Assembly: GCF_900607225.1 (NCBI RefSeq)
Contig: NZ_LR027842.1
Span: 1,718,396 to 1,782,395 of the forward strand
DNA from: [Pseudopropionibacterium] massiliense
GTDB taxonomy: Bacteria > Actinomycetota > Actinomycetes > Propionibacteriales > Propionibacteriaceae
Length of the DNA: 64,000 nt
Direction: 5' to 3'
This document shows, in pieces, positions 20,032 to 39,791 of this stretch. A model generated the notes under the pieces. That model worked only from the letters and a program-made list of their open reading frames with translations. It did not search any database and was not told where the DNA came from. Position 1 is the first letter of the stretch. Each line of letters starts with the position of its first letter. A program made the translations under genes and the position numbers.

Positions 20032-20721
20032 TCAGAAAACGCTGGGCCGGATGCTCAGCTGCTCGACGGTGGCGTTGCCCGGGGTGTCGACGGCCAACCG
20101 CACGGCTGCCGCCACCGACCCGGGTGAGACGTAGCGCGAACCGTCGTAGTGTTCGTTGCCCATCGCCGCCTGTAGCTCACGCTGCATGTCGGTGTCCGTC
20201 CGCCCCGGATGGATGGAGCAGACCCGCACCTTTCCGCGCACCTCCTCACGCAGGGCATCGGTCAGCGCCCGCAGGGCGAACTTGGAACCGGCGTAGACTC
20301 CCCCGCCGGGGCTCGAGAAGAACCCGGCCCCGGAGTTGATGGCCACCACGATCCCCTGGGCGGCCTCGAGGGCGGGCAGGAGAAGGCGGGTGAGGTCGGC
20401 GACGGCGAACACGTTGGTCTCGAAGACCTCGTACCAGAGCGCCCGGGAGGCGGCGCCGATGTCGTCCGAGCGCCCGATGCCGGCGGAGTGGACCAGCACG
20501 TCCAGACGTCCAATCCCGGCGCAGGCCGTGGCGACCGCGTCCTCATCGGCCAGGTCGCAGACGAAGGGTGCCGCGTCGCCCAATTCGGCGACCAGCTCCC
20601 CGACCCGGGCGGCGTCGCGACCGCCCACCAGGATCCGGTGCGTCGAGGAGAGCTCGACGGCGATGGCGCGGCCGATGCCGCGGGTTGCTCCGGTCACGAG
20701 GGCTACAGGGCGATTCGTCAT
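20032..20721 (-). CDS. Short-chain dehydrogenase/reductase
   Basis: The 229-residue SDR has the cofactor motif TGATRGIG (residues 10-17), HSAGIG near 80, INSGAG near 128 and the catalytic YAGSK near 142. The Arg after GATRG and GGRDAAR near 35 suit NADP(H). It follows the NAD-kinase-like gene by 9 bases. TAGATT, whose TAG is also the stop codon of that gene, lies 6 bases before the SDR ATG, so it may also have its own leaderless transcript. The substrate is unknown. Confidence 0.9.
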   Translation of the reverse strand: MTNRPVALVTGATRGIGRAIAVELSSTHRILVGGRDAARVGELVAELGDAAPFVCDLADEDAVATACAGIGRLDVLVHSAGIGRSDDIGAASRALWYEVFETNVFAVADLTRLLLPALEAAQGIVVAINSGAGFFSSPGGGVYAGSKFALRALTDALREEVRGKVRVCSIHPGRTDTDMQRELQAAMGNEHYDGSRYVSPGSVAAAVRLAVDTPGNATVEQLSIRPSVF

Positions 20722-20727
20722 GGGAAG

Positions 20728-20733
20728 AATCTA
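20728..20733 (-). promoter_or_regulatory. -10 box TAGATT of the SDR gene, overlapping the upstream stop codon
   Basis: TAGATT, six bases, then ATG at 20721 on the minus strand. The TAG is the stop codon of the NAD-kinase-like gene. Confidence 0.45.
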
Positions 20734-21606
20734 CTTCAGGCGCATGAGGTTCAGCCCGCCCTCGGCCTTCCGGACGATCAGCCCCTGCCCCCATTCGAGG
20801 CGCAGGAAGTCGCGTTCGATGCCGTCCCCGAAGACCACGAGGGTGGAGCGGGCCGAGAGCTCCAGCCCCTCCCCCTCCGCGAGCAGCCCGGCGGTGAGGG
20901 ATGTGCCGGTGGTCCCCGACGGCCAGGCCTCCCGCACGAAGTAGGCGAGTTCACCGGAGGTGGCCCCCGGTAAGCCGAAACCGGGGCGGTTCTGCCCCCA
21001 CAGCGATGCCAGCCATCCACCGGCACCGGTCCCGGTCCCCACGACCACCCCGGAGGAGGATTGCGTCTCAGCGCTCCCGCCGACCCTGAGGTCGTAGCGC
21101 GCGGACTGATGGCCGCGGTCGCCGGCGAAGATCTCGTTGAGGGCCCGGAGCCGTTGCCCGTCGTCCACGATCGCCTCGACCATCGTCCGAACCTCGGTCT
21201 CCGGCCTGCCCCGGCCCGCCAGCAGGTCCCGCAGGTCCTCGGGCGAGTGGCTGCACAGGACTCCCGGCGCACCCGGGCTGATGCCGAGCACCGGCTGGTC
21301 GCGCAGGTATTTGCTGACGTTGGGAATCAGGCCGTCCTGCCCGACCACGACCACCAAGTCGTCGGGTTCGAAGAGGAACCGGGAGAGCTGACCCCTCTCG
21401 GCCTCCGCGTAACGCCACTGGGCCGGTACCGCGTTCGAGACGGCGTCGAGCGTTCTTCGCTGCGCCTCATCGGCAGCCCGCAGGGTCTCGATCCCCAGCC
21501 CGCGGCCGCTCAGAAAGAACTCGACGGCGCCGAGCGTGGAGTGGACCTCGAGCAGCTCGGCCAGCCAGGTCCGTCGATGCACGACGACGAGACGTGGCGC
21601 GCTCAT
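20731..21606 (-). CDS. NAD kinase-like protein
   Basis: The 291-residue protein has the NAD-kinase layout: a nucleotide motif VVVVGQDGLIPNVSKYL near residue 86 (GGDG changed to GQDG), the conserved ALNEIFAGD near 155, and VVVGTGTGAGGWLASL near 188, close to the TGTGS loop of mitochondrial-type NADK2 rather than the usual TPTGSTAY. ATP/NAD binding is likely; activity is uncertain because of the altered glycine motif. Its start overlaps the SPFH stop (ATGA), so the two are translated together. Confidence 0.8.
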   Translation of the reverse strand: MSAPRLVVVHRRTWLAELLEVHSTLGAVEFFLSGRGLGIETLRAADEAQRRTLDAVSNAVPAQWRYAEAERGQLSRFLFEPDDLVVVVGQDGLIPNVSKYLRDQPVLGISPGAPGVLCSHSPEDLRDLLAGRGRPETEVRTMVEAIVDDGQRLRALNEIFAGDRGHQSARYDLRVGGSAETQSSSGVVVGTGTGAGGWLASLWGQNRPGFGLPGATSGELAYFVREAWPSGTTGTSLTAGLLAEGEGLELSARSTLVVFGDGIERDFLRLEWGQGLIVRKAEGGLNLMRLK

Positions 21607-22640
21607 CCCCGGACCTCCTCCAAGAGCCTGGAGACCCCGCCTGCGAGCAGGTCGGGGGTGAGTGTGAGCGAGTCGATCTTCGGCAACGCGGACAACACCT
21701 CCGGGGCCACGGCTGCCAGCACCGCGACCGGTTCCCCTGCTGAGAAGACCGCCAGCCTGGCCTGGAGGGCGGCATTCTCCGCTTCAGCAATCCGGGCGAC
21801 CTCGCCGGCCCTGGCCTCCGCCATCAGGGTGACCTCGTCGGCCCCAGCCTCCACCCGGAGCCGCCTGTTCGCCGCCTCGGCCTCATTGCGGAGCCGGTCT
21901 CGTTCCAGTTCCTGTTCGGTGCGGCGGCGTTCGTTCATTCCCTGGAGCTCCACGAGCTCGGCCTCGCGGCGAGCCAGTTCGGTTCGGTTGTTCAGCTCGT
22001 TCTCCTTGATGGCCCGTTCCCGGTCCACCGCCTGCGCCCGCCGGTCGTAGGTGGCGCGATCCGCGTCCGCCTGCGCTTCTTCCCGGATACGGGTCTGGAG
22101 GGCCCGTTCGAGCTCCTCGTCGGCCCGGACCGCGACGACACGGACCCCGAGCACCTCGATGCCCGCGCCGCCGAGCTGGCGTTCCCCCGACAGACCCTCG
22201 GCGATCGCGTCGCGGACCAGCCGCAACCCGTCGTCGAGGACCGTCCTGAGGGGCTCCCCCGCGACCACTTCCGCCGCGAACTGTTTCGCGGATTCGGCGA
22301 GGCGGTTCTGCAGGTTCTGCATGGGCTGGCCGGTCCATTCACCGGTTCGCTGGTCGATCTCGAAATCCACCCTCCGAGCGGTCAGCTCGGGATCGGCGAT
22401 ACGCACGGTGAGCGCGGTCTGGACGCTGACCTCCTGGCGGTCGGAGGTGGTGACCCGGAAGATGTTCCCGAACTCCATGTCGTCGACCGGAACCTCGGAG
22501 AGGCTGGTGTCGAGCGGCCGGAACCAGAACGAGGCCCCGGCGCCGCGGTTGACCAGTTTTCCGCGCCTTCCTTGGAAGAGCGCCCTGGTGGCCGAGCTGG
22601 TGGCGTGGGAGAAGAACGGGTAGCGATGAATGGTGGCCAT
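21603..22640 (-). CDS. SPFH/Band 7 domain protein
   Basis: The 345-residue protein begins with an SPFH (stomatin/prohibitin/flotillin) domain without a signal peptide or clear membrane helix (residues about 20-190; FWFRPLDTSLSEVPVDDMEF is typical). A long Ala/Glu/Arg-rich coiled coil follows (about 190-300), then a short hydrophobic tail with LAVFSAGEPVAVLAAVAPEVL. Such proteins form ring or scaffold assemblies at membranes. The ATG has a good AGGAGG site. It heads the operon with the NAD-kinase-like and SDR genes and faces the NrtR-like gene. Confidence 0.88.
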   Translation of the reverse strand: MATIHRYPFFSHATSSATRALFQGRRGKLVNRGAGASFWFRPLDTSLSEVPVDDMEFGNIFRVTTSDRQEVSVQTALTVRIADPELTARRVDFEIDQRTGEWTGQPMQNLQNRLAESAKQFAAEVVAGEPLRTVLDDGLRLVRDAIAEGLSGERQLGGAGIEVLGVRVVAVRADEELERALQTRIREEAQADADRATYDRRAQAVDRERAIKENELNNRTELARREAELVELQGMNERRRTEQELERDRLRNEAEAANRRLRVEAGADEVTLMAEARAGEVARIAEAENAALQARLAVFSAGEPVAVLAAVAPEVLSALPKIDSLTLTPDLLAGGVSRLLEEVRG

Positions 22641-22652
22641 TGGAACCTCCTA

Positions 22653-22671
22653 ATTAATGTGTAACTGACAG
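22653..22671. promoter_or_regulatory. Candidate NrtR operator, SPFH-proximal copy
   Basis: ATTAATGTGTAACTGACAG matches the inverted complement of the copy at 22690-22708 (ATTAACGTCAAGTTGACAG) at 14 of 19 positions. It lies just before the SPFH ribosome site. Confidence 0.55.
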
Positions 22672-22689
22672 TAAAGACTTCTGGAGATT

Positions 22690-22708
22690 CTGTCAACTTG
22701 ACGTTAAT
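22690..22708. promoter_or_regulatory. Candidate NrtR operator, nrtR-proximal copy
   Basis: This copy faces the one at 22653-22671 with an 18-base gap and overlaps the nrtR -10 box, so binding here could shut off nrtR itself. Confidence 0.55.
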
Positions 22709-22710
22709 CT
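22705..22710 (+). promoter_or_regulatory. -10 box TAATCT of the Nudix regulator, leaderless type
   Basis: TAATCT, six bases, then ATG at 22717; no ribosome site is present. Confidence 0.55.
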
Positions 22711-22716
22711 TGGTGC

Positions 22717-23388
22717 ATGAAGCTTCCCGTCATGACCGTCGCCGTCGACATCGTGGTGCTCACCATCGCGGACGCCCGCCTGCAGGTGGCCCTGGTGGAG
22801 CGGGGCATCCCCCCGTACGAGGGGAAACAGGCTCTGCCGGGTGGTTTCGTCCTGCCCGGGGAGTCGGTGATGGATGCGGCCCGGCGCGAGCTGGTGGAGG
22901 AAACCGGCCTGGATCTCGACACGACCCACCTGGAGCAGCTCGCCACCTTCGGCGAACCCGGGCGCGACCCGAGAGGCCGCGTGGTCTCGGTCGCCCACCT
23001 CGCCCTGGCCGCCTCCCTCGGCGGCCTGAATCCCGGGTCGGATGCCTCCGGGGCCCGTTGGTGTCCGGTTGACGACCTGCCCTCCCTGGCCTTCGACCAC
23101 GACGAGATCCTCCGGACGGGGGTCGAACGCGCCCGGGCGAAACTGGAGTACACGACCGTGGCGACCCGGTTCTGCGGGCCCGGGTTCACCATGACCGAGC
23201 TGCGGCGGGTCTACGAGGCGGCCTGGGACACCACGATCGATCCCCGGAACTTCTCACGCAAGGTGCTGGGGTCGCGGGGATTCGTCATCGAGTGCGGGAC
23301 CCGCAGCGGCGGTCGCGGGAGACCCGCCGCCCTGTACCGTGCGGGAACCGCGGACGGCCTTCACCCCCCGATCATGAGGGAGGACTGA
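22717..23388 (+). CDS. nrtR: Nudix-domain transcriptional regulator, NrtR-like
   Basis: The 223-residue protein joins a Nudix domain (residues about 5-135) to a C-terminal winged helix (about 150-215; FTMTELRRVYEAAW and NFSRKVLGSRGFV), the layout of NrtR, a repressor that answers ADP-ribose and controls NAD genes. The Nudix box is intact: G-x5-E then RELVEETGL, so hydrolase activity may remain. Its divergent partner is the SPFH/NAD-kinase-like/SDR operon, and paired inverted repeats fill the 76-base gap. NAD-linked control of that operon is my inference. Confidence 0.87.
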   Translation: MKLPVMTVAVDIVVLTIADARLQVALVERGIPPYEGKQALPGGFVLPGESVMDAARRELVEETGLDLDTTHLEQLATFGEPGRDPRGRVVSVAHLALAASLGGLNPGSDASGARWCPVDDLPSLAFDHDEILRTGVERARAKLEYTTVATRFCGPGFTMTELRRVYEAAWDTTIDPRNFSRKVLGSRGFVIECGTRSGGRGRPAALYRAGTADGLHPPIMRED

Positions 23389-23419: not shown

Positions 23420-23717
23420 GTGCGTTCCACCCAGGACTTCCGCAGCGAGGAGGACGACGGCATCACCTTCGGGACCGAGACTCGCGACCGTGAGGAGTAC
23501 GTGCATTTGTACATCGGACACTCGCCGTGTGCGGAACCCGTGGCTGGTCGAGAACCGCTTCACCCCGGCCACGGAAGTGTTCGCCACCGATCTCGTCCCA
23601 GACGACTGGTCGTGGACGAACGTGCTGCTCGTGGCCGAGAAACCCCTGCGAAGCGGGTTGGGGCCGCAGGAAACCTCGCGACCCCAACCGTGTCGCGTCA
23701 TTTCCTCCAGGGTGTGA
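23420..23717 (+). pseudogene. Possible frameshifted gene remnant
   Basis: The 309-base gap between nrtR and the DinB gene is not empty. Frame one (from GTG 23420) reads VRSTQDFRSEEDDGITF and on to LYIGHS with strongly GC-ending codons. From about 23523 the same codon character moves to another frame reading VRNPWLVENRFTPATEVF and on to VLLVAEKPL, ending at 23717. A one-base shift near 23520 would join them. I do not recognise the product. It may be a decayed gene or two unrelated open frames. Confidence 0.3.
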
Positions 23718-24255
23718 CGAACTCGTTGGCGGGCCTCCCCTCGACGGCGGCATTGAGTTCCGCTGCCTTGGCGCCGTCGATCTGCTCCCGGATGATGTCG
23801 GCGTGGCCGGCGTGTCGGGCGAACTCCTCCAGGTCGTGGACGACGACGTACCTCATGGCCGCCTCGGCGGGCTCGTTGCGCCCGTACCAGGGTGCCGGCG
23901 GAACCTGCACCACCCGATCCAGATCGACCTCCTCCACCAGCGCCAGGTACTGCTCGCACAGTTTGTCGTAGTTCTCCAGCAGCGTCGCGAGGTCCTCGTC
24001 CTCGCCCGGGGTGAAGCTGGCCATGAAGTCCTCGTAGCCGGGTTTCGCGTCCAGGACACCGGCCGCAGCCAGTCGGTTGCGCAGGACGTAGGAGCAGTGT
24101 TTGATCACCCCTGCGACGGAGAACACCGAGGCCAAGGGTTGCTGCCGGGCCTGTTCGTCGGTCAGCCCGTGGGCGGCGTCCCGGATGGCCTGGAGCTGCA
24201 CCTGCAGGAAATTGCGTAGTGTGGTGCGTTCATCGTGGATGGCCGGGAAGTACAT
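23698..24255 (-). CDS. DinB-family protein (DUF664)
   Basis: The 185-residue four-helix protein of the DinB/DUF664 group has a metal-binding-type His triad: H in VIKHCSYVL near residue 55, and HDLEEFARHAGHADIIREQ near 140. Actinobacterial members include mycothiol- or bacillithiol-dependent transferases, though the role here is unknown. The ATG at 24255 has AGGAGG 5 bases upstream. It is divergent from a WYL-domain regulator, which probably controls it. Confidence 0.85.
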   Translation of the reverse strand: MYFPAIHDERTTLRNFLQVQLQAIRDAAHGLTDEQARQQPLASVFSVAGVIKHCSYVLRNRLAAAGVLDAKPGYEDFMASFTPGEDEDLATLLENYDKLCEQYLALVEEVDLDRVVQVPPAPWYGRNEPAEAAMRYVVVHDLEEFARHAGHADIIREQIDGAKAAELNAAVEGRPANEFVTPWRK

Positions 24256-24301
24256 GTTTCCTCCTGTTCGGTTCGTTCGACACCAACGTTGCCGCACAAT
24301 C

Positions 24302-24318
24302 CGGACAGATTCTGTCCG
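24302..24318. promoter_or_regulatory. Operator-like dyad between DinB and WYL genes
   Basis: CGGACAG-ATT-CTGTCCG is a perfect 7-bp inverted repeat with a 3-base centre, 23 bases before the WYL start. It is a good candidate site for the WYL regulator on the shared divergent promoter. Confidence 0.6.
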
Positions 24319-24341
24319 CTACCCGTGCAAGGCTTGGGTTC

Positions 24342-25517
24342 ATGAGCGAGATCACCCACCGGGTACTGCGGCTGCTGGGGCTGCTCGAGTCCCGCTCCAC
24401 GTGGACGGGTTCCGAGTTGGCGGAGCGGCTCGGGGTCACGCAGCGAACCATCCGGCGTGACGTCATCAGGCTCCGGGCGCTCGGTTACCGGGTGGAAAGC
24501 GTGCAGGGTCTGGACGGCGGATACCGCATGTCGGGTGGCCGTGCCCTGCCCCCTCTGGTGCTCGACGACGACGAGGCCATTGCCCTGACGGCATGCCTGA
24601 AGATGGCCGCCTTGGACGGCAGGGACCAGATCGGCGAGGCCGCTCTGCGGGCCCTGGCGAAGCTCGACCAGGTGCTGCCCGCGCGGATTCGTCCCGAGGT
24701 CGCAGCGGTTTCGGAGGCCGTGACGACTCTGCCATCCACCCGCCCCGGGATTTCCTGGCAGCCCTTGGCGGCGCTGGCGAAGGCCAAGCGCGACCACTGC
24801 CTGGTGCGGATCACCTACGTGCGCGGCGACGGGGAGGAGTCCGAACGGGACGTGGAACCCGCCCAGCTGCTCGCCCAGGCCGGAAAGTGGTATTTGATCG
24901 CCTTCGACCGGTTGCGTTCCGACTGGCGGATCTTCCGGCTAGACCGCATGAACCAGGTTCGTGTTCTCACCTTCACCTTCGCTCCCCGCTCCCCACCCAA
25001 CCCCCGTGACATGTTGCTGGGTCGGCGCCCGGAGAGCTGGCCGCACGAGGCGGTGGTGACGCTCACCTGTCCCTCACGGGCCCTGGAGGACAGGATTCCG
25101 GAACGCCATTTCGAGTTGTTGGAGGACAACGACGGGGTCTCGACGCTGCGGGTGGGGGCCGATGATCCCGGCCACATGGCCTGGCATCTCGTCGGTGTAG
25201 CGCGCTCTCTGGGAGCGGAGCTGCACGTGGTGCGCGGCGATTCCCTGCGAAACGCCCTGGCGGCCCTGGCAACGGAGTTCACCGAGGCCGCTCAGTCGAG
25301 CAGCCTCAGCACCACGCCGTCGGCCAGGAGACGGCCGCGCAGGGTGAGCACGAGCCGGCCGTCTGCCACGGCCCCCAGTCCTTCGGCGACGATCCCGTCG
25401 ACCCGGGCGGATTCGGTCTCGGTGAGCACGTCCAGCGGTAGTCCCTCGGCCAGCCGGAGTTCGAGCATCACCCGCTCCACCCGGCGATCCTCCGGGGACA
25501 GCACCTCCCGGCCCTGA
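24342..25517 (+). CDS. WYL-domain regulator with antisense C-terminal extension
   Basis: The protein has an N-terminal winged helix (HRVLRLLGLLES and GVTQRTIRRDVIRLRALGY, residues about 5-48) and a WYL domain (KWYLIAFDRLRSDWRIFRLDRM, about 180-205) that usually senses a ligand or nucleic acid. A normal YafY-type protein of about 315 residues would end near ALATEFTEAAQ. Here no stop appears, and the frame runs 226 bases into the hemW 3' end, adding about 75 low-complexity Ser/Arg/Thr/Pro residues for a total of 391. Stop-codon loss or a sequence error could explain this. DNA-binding and WYL parts look intact. Confidence 0.85.
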   Translation: MSEITHRVLRLLGLLESRSTWTGSELAERLGVTQRTIRRDVIRLRALGYRVESVQGLDGGYRMSGGRALPPLVLDDDEAIALTACLKMAALDGRDQIGEAALRALAKLDQVLPARIRPEVAAVSEAVTTLPSTRPGISWQPLAALAKAKRDHCLVRITYVRGDGEESERDVEPAQLLAQAGKWYLIAFDRLRSDWRIFRLDRMNQVRVLTFTFAPRSPPNPRDMLLGRRPESWPHEAVVTLTCPSRALEDRIPERHFELLEDNDGVSTLRVGADDPGHMAWHLVGVARSLGAELHVVRGDSLRNALAALATEFTEAAQSSSLSTTPSARRRPRRVSTSRPSATAPSPSATIPSTRADSVSVSTSSGSPSASRSSSITRSTRRSSGDSTSRP

Positions 25518-37578: not shown

Positions 37579-37675
37579 GACCCTGTTGGAAACTCTGACA
37601 AAGATTACACCTAATTTAATGCCAGGTTAACAAAAAATTAATTCCTTGACTGGATTGGTGACCGCGCCGGAAGGT

Positions 37676-37690
37676 GATCTCGGAGAGATC
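37676..37690. promoter_or_regulatory. Small dyad in the 5'-nucleotidase leader
   Basis: GATCTC-GGA-GAGATC is a perfect 6-bp inverted repeat about 40 bases before the ATG. The stretch just upstream (37600-37650) is AT-rich and contains TTGACT, so it probably carries the promoter. An operator role is only possible. Confidence 0.3.
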
Positions 37691-37727
37691 GACAACAGCG
37701 TCGACCGGAGAACACCTGGAGTTGCTC

Positions 37728-39791
37728 ATGATTCCGCTCAGGAAACGTTTCACAGCCGGGCTCACGGCCCTGTGCCTGGGGCTCGGGACACATCTCATGG
37801 CACAGCCCCGCGCAGCGGCCGACCCGGCCGACTGCACGCCCGCCAACACCGTTTCGATGTTCACCTACAACGACTTCCACGGCAGGCTGGCGAACGCCGC
37901 GGCCCTGTTCACCCCCGTGGAGAAGGCCCGCGCCTCCCGGGGGGACGCGAATGTCGCTCTCATCAGCAGCGGGGACGACATCGGGGGTTCCACGTTCGAG
38001 TCCATGGCCGATGACGACAACCCCACCCTGAAGGTGATGGCCGCTGCCAAACTCAGCGCACGAACCGTCGGGAACCACGAGTTCGACAAGGGCTGGGCCG
38101 ACCTCGCGGGCCGCGTGAACCCAGCGGTACCCGGGGTGGATCAGCTCGGGGCGAACGTCTACCTCAAGGGAACCAGGCAGGTGGCCTCCCCACTCAAGGC
38201 GTACACGACCTTCAAGGTCGGGGAACTCGATGTCGCCGTGATCGGCGCCGTAACCGGGGATCTGCCGTCCCTCGTCTCCCCCGCCGGGATCTCGGACCTG
38301 ACCATCGGTGACCCCGTGGATGCCGTGAACGAGACAGTTTCCCAGCTTCCCGAGGGAATCGACCTGGTGATCGCCTCCATCCACGAAGGAGCGCCGAGCG
38401 GAAACGGCACCGGTGACGAGCAGGCCGCCACCAGCCCGAACTTCCGGAAGATGTGGACGGGAATCGACCCGAGGATTCGCGTGGTGCTGGGCGGACACAC
38501 CCACCAGACCTATTCGTGGACCAACGACAAGGGGCAGCTGTTCACCCAGGCCGGTTCCTACGCGGCGGCCCTGAACGAGCTCAAGGCCGGGGTCACCGAC
38601 GACGGCGCCCTGTGCGGGATCTCCAACACCACCACCGGGATCGACCCCAAGGCATCCGACACGAGCCTGCCGCGCATCCGGGAGATCACCGACATCGTCT
38701 CCGCCGCCGTCACCAAGGCCGATGAGATCGGCGCACAGGTGATCGGCCAGGCAACCGAGGCCATCTCGACGCCGACCGGCAACTCCGACGTCCGGGACGT
38801 GGAGTCGCCCATGAGCAACATGGTGGCCCAGATGTTCCGGGAGGTGCTGGGCGGCGACGATCCGTATTTCATCGGCGTCCAGAACCCGGGTGGCACCCGC
38901 GACAGCTTCGATGCGGGGGAGATCACCTACAAGGAGGCCGCGCTCACGCTGCCGTTCGCGAACACCCTGATGACCACCCGGCTCACCGGGGCCCAGTTCA
39001 AGACGATCCTGGAGCAGCAGTGGCAGCGCAACGACAAGGGCGAGATCCCCTCGCGCCCGTTCCTGCGCCTGGGTCTTTCCAGCAACGTCTCCTACACCTA
39101 TGACGAGTCCCGCCCGGAGGGGGACCGGATCACCTCGGTCTTCGTCGGGGACTCCCCACTCGATCCGGAGCGGCTCTACACCGTCGGTTCCACTTCCTTC
39201 CTGATCGCGGGTGGGGACAATTTCCGGGAGTTCGCGAAGGGCGCCGGGACCCGGGACACGGGACGCGTCGATCTGGAGGCCTGGACCGAATGGGTGAAGG
39301 CCCGGCAGACGCTCTCCCCCAGCTACGCCAAGCGCGGCCTGCCGCTGATCGACGCCCCCACCGAGATCAACCGGAACGGCGGGACCGCCACCTTCAACTT
39401 CGACGTGCCGGGTGGCGACGTGAAGGCACGGGAGGGCATCGACTTCCTGCTGGGTGAGGCGGCCGGCGCATCCCCGAAGGACCCGGCCAAGGTCAGCCCG
39501 GCGCTCACGAACAACGGCGTCGAGGTCTTCCTGGGCGGGACCGGAATCGGCAGCGGGACCGTGACCGACGGCAGGGCGAAGGTCGATGTCACACTGCCCG
39601 GCGGCTGCTCCGCACCCACCGGAACCCAGACGCTGACCTTCAGGTTCGCCCCCTCGGGGACCCTCGCCCACCGGCAGGTGAACATCACCGGGGACGATTC
39701 GTCGTGTACCCCGGCCCCGCCGGAACCGGAGCCGACGGGGACCCCGTCGCGGACCCTCGTCAGGCCGGGGCTCCCCAGGACCGGTTCGTGA
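37728..39791 (+). CDS. Secreted 5'-nucleotidase / 2',3'-cyclic phosphodiesterase family protein
   Basis: The 687-residue protein has a signal peptide (RKRFTAGLTALCLGLG, cleavage near PRAAA-DP at about 35), a metallophosphoesterase domain (YNDFHGRL near 47, SSGDDIGG near 80, GNHEFDKG near 113, LGGHTHQTY near 255), and a 5'-nucleotidase C-terminal domain (NPGGTRDSFDAGEITY near 400). It would release phosphate from nucleotides outside the cell. The protein ends in GLPRTGS, an LPxTG-like motif with no hydrophobic helix or basic tail after it. GGAG lies 6 bases before the ATG. Confidence 0.93.
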   Translation: MIPLRKRFTAGLTALCLGLGTHLMAQPRAAADPADCTPANTVSMFTYNDFHGRLANAAALFTPVEKARASRGDANVALISSGDDIGGSTFESMADDDNPTLKVMAAAKLSARTVGNHEFDKGWADLAGRVNPAVPGVDQLGANVYLKGTRQVASPLKAYTTFKVGELDVAVIGAVTGDLPSLVSPAGISDLTIGDPVDAVNETVSQLPEGIDLVIASIHEGAPSGNGTGDEQAATSPNFRKMWTGIDPRIRVVLGGHTHQTYSWTNDKGQLFTQAGSYAAALNELKAGVTDDGALCGISNTTTGIDPKASDTSLPRIREITDIVSAAVTKADEIGAQVIGQATEAISTPTGNSDVRDVESPMSNMVAQMFREVLGGDDPYFIGVQNPGGTRDSFDAGEITYKEAALTLPFANTLMTTRLTGAQFKTILEQQWQRNDKGEIPSRPFLRLGLSSNVSYTYDESRPEGDRITSVFVGDSPLDPERLYTVGSTSFLIAGGDNFREFAKGAGTRDTGRVDLEAWTEWVKARQTLSPSYAKRGLPLIDAPTEINRNGGTATFNFDVPGGDVKAREGIDFLLGEAAGASPKDPAKVSPALTNNGVEVFLGGTGIGSGTVTDGRAKVDVTLPGGCSAPTGTQTLTFRFAPSGTLAHRQVNITGDDSSCTPAPPEPEPTGTPSRTLVRPGLPRTGS

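Follow-up and report, generated by a model that had tools for sequence, protein, structure and literature searches.

The DNA considered here is a stretch of 64,000 nucleotides (nt) from [Pseudopropionibacterium] massiliense, referred to below as the window, and the genes under study occupy its positions 20032-23388. An earlier note, made from the sequence alone, had described at this place an operon of three minus-strand genes facing a divergent regulator gene, and all four open reading frames (ORFs) were indeed found where it had put them:

20032..20721, minus strand: SDR oxidoreductase of the PRK08219 type (NCBIfam PRK08219 289.2 bits, cut-off 218; Pfam adh_short 143.7 bits)
20731..21606, minus strand: NADKL, an NADK2-like kinase homologue of 291 amino acids (aa), with GQDG for GGDG, the NE motif and an SSG...GTGTG...W loop
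21603..22640, minus strand: SPFH/Band 7 protein, 345 aa (Band_7 58 bits, cut-off 23.6)
22717..23388, plus strand: NrtR-type regulator, 223 aa, a fusion of Nudix and NrtR winged-helix domains (Pfam NUDIX 71.8 bits and NrtR_WHD 53.3 bits, both above cut-off)

The SPFH and NADKL genes overlap by 4 nt, NADKL and the SDR gene are separated by 9 base pairs (bp), and nrtR is divergent from SPFH-NADKL across a gap of 76 bp. Three features singled out by the earlier note, namely the GQDG motif and TGTG loop of NADKL and the intact Nudix box of NrtR, were verified in the window sequences. Its overall interpretation, an NAD(P)-responsive and membrane-associated system of four genes, stood in part: below, we argue for an NrtR-SPFH-NADKL system with an NADK2-type kinase homologue and an intact Nudix box, in which NrtR would bind the shared gap, and against the SDR partnership and the membrane association.

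The NrtR-SPFH-NADKL unit

A scan for NADKL across one genome per species returned at least 568 confirmed relatives, of which the best 80 loci were kept. Being the best 80 of at least 568, these loci lean towards close relatives, and Kribbella alone gives 10 of them. They span 25 named genera (counted from titles), including Nocardioides, Kribbella, Streptomyces, Lentzea, Nocardia, Mycobacterium, Arthrobacter, Frankia and Solirubrobacter, as well as metagenome-assembled genomes, among which two bear the label Proteobacteria and one the label Acidobacteria. SPFH adjoins NADKL in all 80 related loci and, therefore, the pairing is far beyond chance. An NrtR gene is located within 3.5 kb of NADKL in 62 loci and is divergent in 61 of these; the nrtR gene of L097 is not divergent, and this locus is thus not among the 62 gaps analysed below. 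The first search, comprising 19 loci with a real NADKL (L001-L019, window included), gave an adjacent SPFH gene in 19 cases and NrtR in 18. Among 41 genomes (the window's own and 40 relatives), NADKL and SPFH occurred together in 19 and were jointly missing from 22; the 19 NADKL matches were full-scoring, and two extra weak ones resembled canonical NADK. Within the order, 72 of 293 genomes had NADKL at E 1e-20, one of them as a fragment. In a sample of the phylum, 37 of 396 genomes matched at E 1e-5 and only 12 at E 1e-100, the remainder being one split match, one short fragmentary match and 23 matches that cover the middle of the protein only and resemble canonical NADK.

Besides these three genes, no gene family was found near more than 11 of the 80 loci, and those 11 were SDR-type genes. 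Overall, the sequence comparison supports well a conserved unit of three genes, NrtR, SPFH and NADKL. The four genes that the earlier note had joined are rarely found together, whereas the three-gene core is recurrent.

The SDR gene is not part of the conserved unit. An SDR match lies within 2.5 kb in 9 of the 80 loci, with a clear orthologue in two only, both from Arachnia; in the set L001-L019, five of 19 loci, window included, had a clear orthologue beside the unit. At E<=1e-50, six of the 19 unit-bearing genomes had the SDR and 13 lacked it, and five of the 22 unit-free genomes had it too. Such a distribution, independent of the unit, does not bear out the SDR as a partner, even if the gene stands close behind NADKL in some genomes of the window's genus and in Arachnia. 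Positions 23698-25517 of the window, adjoining the unit, hold a mycothiol-S-transferase-type gene (minus strand) and a gene for a helix-turn-helix/WYL regulator (plus strand); judging by the gene families near the 80 loci, the WYL regulator was not found to belong to the conserved unit.

More distant NADKL sequences, at approximately 35-44% identity, were found on plasmids of Rhizobium, Cupriavidus (these two at approximately 35-40%) and Roseomonas, the plasmid records annotating them as 'hypothetical protein', 'sugar kinase' or not at all. In the annotation of Rhizobium sp. Pop5, a divergent NUDIX gene accompanies SPFH and a 'sugar kinase', the last of which reads GQDG; Cupriavidus has all three unit genes by tblastn; and Roseomonas has SPFH-NADKL (GQDG), with no NrtR match within the stretch examined. 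A gene for an RES-family NAD+ phosphorylase is located approximately 2.6 kb from the Rhizobium unit (L186:8517-9074).

NADKL had no match in GenBank phages. In IMG/VR, a single contig of 257.5 kb, IMGVR_UViG_3300023296_000874 (L194/L195/L196), carried SPFH adjoining a GQDG NADKL. Directly after NADKL there is a nicotinate-phosphoribosyltransferase-like gene (TIGR01513 at 1.2e-24, far below its cut-off; Pfam just under cut-off; PDB match 1.3e-9). Also on this contig are a Nudix gene, whose NrtR_WHD match was weak (19.8 bits, cut-off 27), and a gene of the isochorismatase family (33.7 bits, cut-off 27), which weakly matched nicotinamidase; ClpP- and LysS (lysyl-tRNA synthetase)-type genes stand near the unit. 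The contig is a probable giant phage, a status that follows from its IMG/VR listing and some PHROG matches (phrog_7313 at 2e-40); the proteins scanned, from approximately 18 kb, included no structural phage gene. This cluster of Nudix/NrtR_WHD-like, nicotinamidase-like and nicotinate-phosphoribosyltransferase-like genes around SPFH-NADKL may be counted in favour of a link to NAD. A small and apparently undescribed gene set, in which a protein of a ring-forming type is paired with an unusual relative of human mitochondrial NAD kinase, recurs across many actinobacteria, in some proteobacteria and in one contig that is probably a giant phage.

The regulator and the operators in the shared gap

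The best PDB matches of the window NrtR were AraR 5bs6 (1e-26) and 3gz5 (6e-24), the latter deposited as a MutT/nudix family protein, which we take to be an NrtR. On the NCBIfam NrtR equivalog, the protein reached 114.7 bits, below the cut-off of 400. Its Nudix box is intact, as it is in 59 of the 62 related loci. A tree was built from 49 NrtR rows, including 34 of the 63 unit NrtRs of the window and loci, and was rooted at midpoint; with a bootstrap that had not settled, 33 of these 34 and all five unlinked NrtRs described below fell in one clade (support 98/97), far from the group that includes a nadA-linked NrtR. The clade is not exclusive to unit NrtRs: it also takes in three others and a pnuC-nadR-linked NrtR, and the NrtRs of L097, Rhizobium and Cupriavidus lie outside it.

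The gaps between nrtR and SPFH contain a 21-bp palindrome with the consensus TTATCGTCAACTTGACGATAA. A position weight matrix (PWM) was built from 62 gaps (61 loci and the window), and at a score >=10 two sites were found in 56 gaps and one in 6. Shuffled controls gave 2 single matches in 1240, and none of 2559 random windows reached 10. The centres of the two sites are 33-34 bp apart in 43 of the 56 two-site gaps; eight gaps have a spacing of 44-45 bp, and the remaining five range over 27-51 bp. In the window, where the centre spacing is 33 bp, the following features were assigned:

22687..22707, no strand: operator 1, on the nrtR side; minus-strand sequence TTAACGTCAAGTTGACAGAAT, the right half of which bears the -35 box (PWM score 20.6)
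22654..22674, no strand: operator 2, on the SPFH side and degenerate; minus-strand sequence TTACTGTCAGTTACACATTAA, which bears the -10 box (PWM score 11.8)
22691..22696, minus strand: -35 hexamer TTGACA inferred for the SPFH-NADKL promoter (all 56 two-site gaps have TTGAC at the same offset in the operator)
22668..22673, minus strand: inferred -10 hexamer TACTGT, 17 nt downstream of -35 (TANNNT in 51/56)

At the same offset in the SPFH-proximal site, TTGAC occurs in 6 of 56 gaps only. The TANNNT motif follows TTGAC after 17-18 nt (16-19 nt allowed) in the 51 gaps, as compared with 4.6% when tails were shuffled. A generic promoter scan reported nothing at the inferred window promoter. With the -35 box in operator 1 and, at the prevailing spacing, the -10 box in operator 2, a repressor bound there would cover the promoter.

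As the matrix was built from the 62 gaps, a fair test is provided by the SPFH upstream regions without an adjacent nrtR. Eighteen loci are of this kind, and 17 upstream regions were available (L028 is missing): 12 scored >=14, one 6.7, and four had no site. Paired operators overlapping promoter boxes represent strong sequence evidence for the earlier suggestion that the regulator binds the gap, and control of the SPFH-NADKL promoter by NrtR is, on these grounds, well supported.

Allowing up to three mismatches, a search of 14 genomes located 33 consensus operators in 12 of them, and the reversed control gave none. Of these sites, 16 lie immediately before a unit, in 10 genomes, five precede a distant nrtR, and 12 are elsewhere. 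The five unlinked nrtR genes with the unit operator come from five genomes of one genus, and their number is not an unbiased count, because those genomes were examined for having such a site. A degenerate pattern fitted to the window matched operator 1 exactly and operator 2 with 3 mismatches; in the rest of the window's own genome it gave only two sites, both weaker than operator 1, one of which stands 43 bp ahead of a long ORF.

Several operator-like sequences outside the unit were also noted. At 37616-37636 of the window, a weaker site (two mismatches) stands 37 bp before a long plus-strand ORF (37674-39791). In G147, a row of PnuC, AAA_28 and NrtR genes (L164:3897-6377), where we read AAA_28 as NadR-like, has a related operator TTATAGTCA-N3-TGACTATTA at the pnuC start and an NrtR inside the clade of unit NrtRs; one of the 12 outlying consensus sites precedes a pnuC gene. 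In G063, two near-perfect operator-like palindromes are located 6.4 kb apart (L165:3570 and L165:10009), and the three genes tested beside them had no Pfam match. The Cupriavidus gap contains repeated AAGTTGTAC-type palindromes (L187:3899-3942), probably a different operator of its own NrtR. In actinobacteria, SPFH-NADKL is thus apparently placed under a switch belonging to a type that is known to respond to a breakdown product of NAD.

NADKL and the SPFH protein

NADKL has the NADK fold and is, by sequence, a relative of the NADK2 type; the kinase likeness seen by the earlier note was thereby borne out. Alignment reveals the SSG...TGTG...W loop and an NADK2-like N-terminal region, and structural alignment with NADK2 gives 20% identity. 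The family alignments A2, A3 and A4 comprised 59, 57 and 46 sequences, respectively, chosen from the window and the 80 loci (62 for NrtR). The second Gly of GGDG is replaced in all 80 loci (76 GQDG, 3 GPDG and 1 GSDG), whereas GGDG is invariant in the 14 canonical NADKs of alignment A5, which omits L180, L115, L120, L121 and the short L126 and does not include the canonical NADK of the window's own genome. Profile alignment to canonical NADK indicates that the catalytic Asp and the NE motif are retained, with D91 and N157 invariant in 59 of 59 aligned rows and E158 kept in at least 90%. Conserved region II, represented in Ppnk by Asp-189, Thr-200 and Tyr-202 (PMC8553519), has Ser for Asp and Trp for Tyr in NADKL, both as in NADK2; at the Thr-200 position, no fewer than 90% of A2 rows have Thr, and the window NADKL has Gly.

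We prefer to regard NADKL as an NAD(H) kinase, and two other views of it deserve weighing. The first, unlikely if by no means far-fetched, is an NADK-fold kinase that acts on another acceptor, such as NaAD, some modified dinucleotide or a derivative of ADP-ribose, or takes another donor, such as polyphosphate; the module would then repair or mark a nucleotide instead of producing NADP. Replacement of the GGDG glycine alongside a kept Asp and NE motif would suit such an enzyme, as would the canonical NADK already encoded in the same genome and the ability of the human mitochondrial NAD kinase to take polyphosphate as well as ATP as phosphate donor (PMC8553519); however, the nearest relative in fold and motif appears to be NADK2, an NAD(H) kinase. 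The second view, which we find distinctly improbable, sees in NADKL a pseudokinase, that is, an NAD(P)(H)-binding sensor gating SPFH assembly without catalysis. It would account for the loss of GGDG in every member examined, for a Pfam NAD_kinase match of 23.2 bits, under the cut-off of 25.5, and for the constant pairing with SPFH, but the Asp, Asn and Glu retained in NADKL have equivalents reported as vital in a NAD kinase (PMC8553519), and their retention fits selection on catalysis.

The AlphaFold model of the window SPFH protein (one chain; mean predicted local distance difference test score 87.7) consists of an SPFH domain followed by one long helix (175-299), with beta strands from residue 3 and no N-terminal membrane helix. 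No 19-residue Kyte-Doolittle window starting in the first 60 residues exceeded 1.29 in 79 of the 80 SPFH proteins, L028 being cut and therefore left out. Membrane association, as the earlier note had it, is thus not borne out, though the protein may bind peripherally. That note's version, in which an SPFH membrane scaffold organises NAD(P) enzymes, the SDR included, at the membrane, appears very unlikely to us: the Band_7 domain, the structural matches of the model to SPFH-family proteins such as the membrane complexes of Erlin, HflK/C and prohibitin, hydrophobic windows of up to 1.81 in other parts of some SPFH proteins (for that of the window, 1.53 at residue 298) and the example of flotillins, which attach to membranes without a classical membrane helix, would speak for it, yet the low N-terminal hydropathy, the predicted early beta strands and the independent distribution of the SDR gene all speak against it.

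A possible NAD-stress module and its place among known systems

Our preferred reading, which we consider about as probable as its opposite, is a three-gene NAD-stress module, in which NrtR would control SPFH and an NADK2-type NAD(H) kinase shifting NAD(H) to NADP(H). NrtR would repress its own gene and the divergent SPFH-NADKL operon from the two 21-bp operators over the -35 and -10 boxes, and this step is well supported by the gap sequences. By analogy with described NrtR proteins, NAD+ breakdown might raise ADP-ribose, which would bind the Nudix domain and release NrtR. The Nudix box, intact in nearly all loci and degenerate in MsNrtR (PMC6800001), suggests that NrtR may also destroy its signal; by hydrolysing ADP-ribose it might reset the switch. 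The operon would thereby supply a second, non-housekeeping NADK2-type NAD(H) kinase, whose GQDG phosphate-loop motif may change the phosphate donor or tune activity. A soluble SPFH protein, contacting NADKL, could form a ring or cage that holds or confines it. As the output, the remaining NAD(H) would be moved into NADP(H) while NAD is being consumed.

A number of observations weigh against this scenario. With regard to the kinase, GGDG is kept in 0 of 80 NADKL members, the window protein stays below the Pfam cut-off, and it has Gly at the Thr of STAY, which most family members and canonical NADKs retain; therefore, NAD kinase activity may be lost or altered. With regard to the switch, four of the 17 loci without an adjacent nrtR had no site and one had only a weak one, and 12 of the 33 consensus sites stand neither at a unit nor before the five nrtR genes. 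At up to three mismatches, the consensus operator is absent from the window's own genome and from G008, and also at the units of G003 and G026. Operator 2 of the window is degenerate, its genome having one better (2 mismatches) and one equal (3 mismatches) site elsewhere. Neither the Rhizobium gap nor that of Cupriavidus matches the operator, and Rhizobium has a degenerate Nudix box. Finally, the ADP-ribose trigger is proposed by analogy.

It is tempting to go further and suppose an NAD-protection compartment, which we put forward as a doubtful possibility. Here, a membrane-free SPFH cage would house an NADK2-type kinase with a rewired donor site, locking NAD(H) into NADP(H) or another phosphorylated dinucleotide upon an ADP-ribose signal, and a giant phage would have taken up the unit together with NAD salvage genes. 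If so, the unit would be a shared weapon in NAD-depletion conflicts.

To our knowledge, no earlier NrtR regulon drives a second NAD kinase. Should the module reading hold, it would describe such a regulon and give a soluble SPFH protein a defined partner. The unit supplies a ready-made operator for probing ADP-ribose signalling and may open bacterial relatives of human NADK2 to study; through the viral copy, it would be connected with the contest between phages and bacteria over NAD. The NADKL subfamily, with at least 568 confirmed relatives, appears to be without a described function. In the literature on NAD kinase/NADK2, SPFH, NrtR/Nudix regulons, NAD use and phage NAD reconstitution (titles and abstract openings), the unit was undescribed among the matches listed; an earlier mention in the original 2008 NrtR paper is possible.

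Among known systems, MsNrtR of Mycobacterium smegmatis (eLife 2019, PMC6800001) is similar in its Nudix and winged-helix domains, its divergent target operon and its palindromic operator in the shared gap. ADP-ribose, at 50 mM, releases MsNrtR from DNA. Unlike MsNrtR, which targets nadABC and whose Nudix box is degenerate and inactive, the NrtR studied here would target SPFH-NADKL and has an intact box in 59 of 62 loci. The operators differ too, being TTATCGTCA-N3-TGACGATAA here and GTTTTCGA-N7-TCGAAAAC in MsNrtR; those of the unit are in tandem and overlap promoter boxes, and its regulators fall in a clade separate from a nadA-linked NrtR. Another similar case is that of the ARG-centred ADP-ribose systems, whose regulators are of Nudix or WYL type and in which a Nudix-helix-turn-helix repressor thought to sense ADP-ribose controls an operon (PMC9503650). 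SPFH and NAD kinase have no occurrence in PMC9503650, and here no further gene family is conserved around the unit in the 80 loci.

The SPFH protein resembles the prokaryotic SPFH subfamilies described by Hinderhofer 2009 (PMC2636767) in having an SPFH domain and a long coiled region. An N-terminal transmembrane region is reported there in 10 of 12 subfamilies, SPFH8 and SPFH9 being predicted soluble, as is the protein considered here. The words 'kinase' and 'Nudix' have no occurrence in the text of that paper. In contrast to those subfamilies, no NfeD-type or other conserved partner besides NADKL and NrtR accompanies SPFH in the 80 loci.

Finally, NADKL differs from human NADK2/C5orf33 (PDB 7r4j-7r4m and 7n29; PMC8553519) in its GQDG for GGDG and its identity of 20% in structural alignment, and in being bacterial, operon-borne and linked to SPFH and NrtR. 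From the canonical bacterial NAD kinase (PpnK/NadK), it is set apart by the missing GGDG and by Ser and Trp in place of the region II Asp and Tyr, and it is a second gene alongside the canonical NADK in the same genome.

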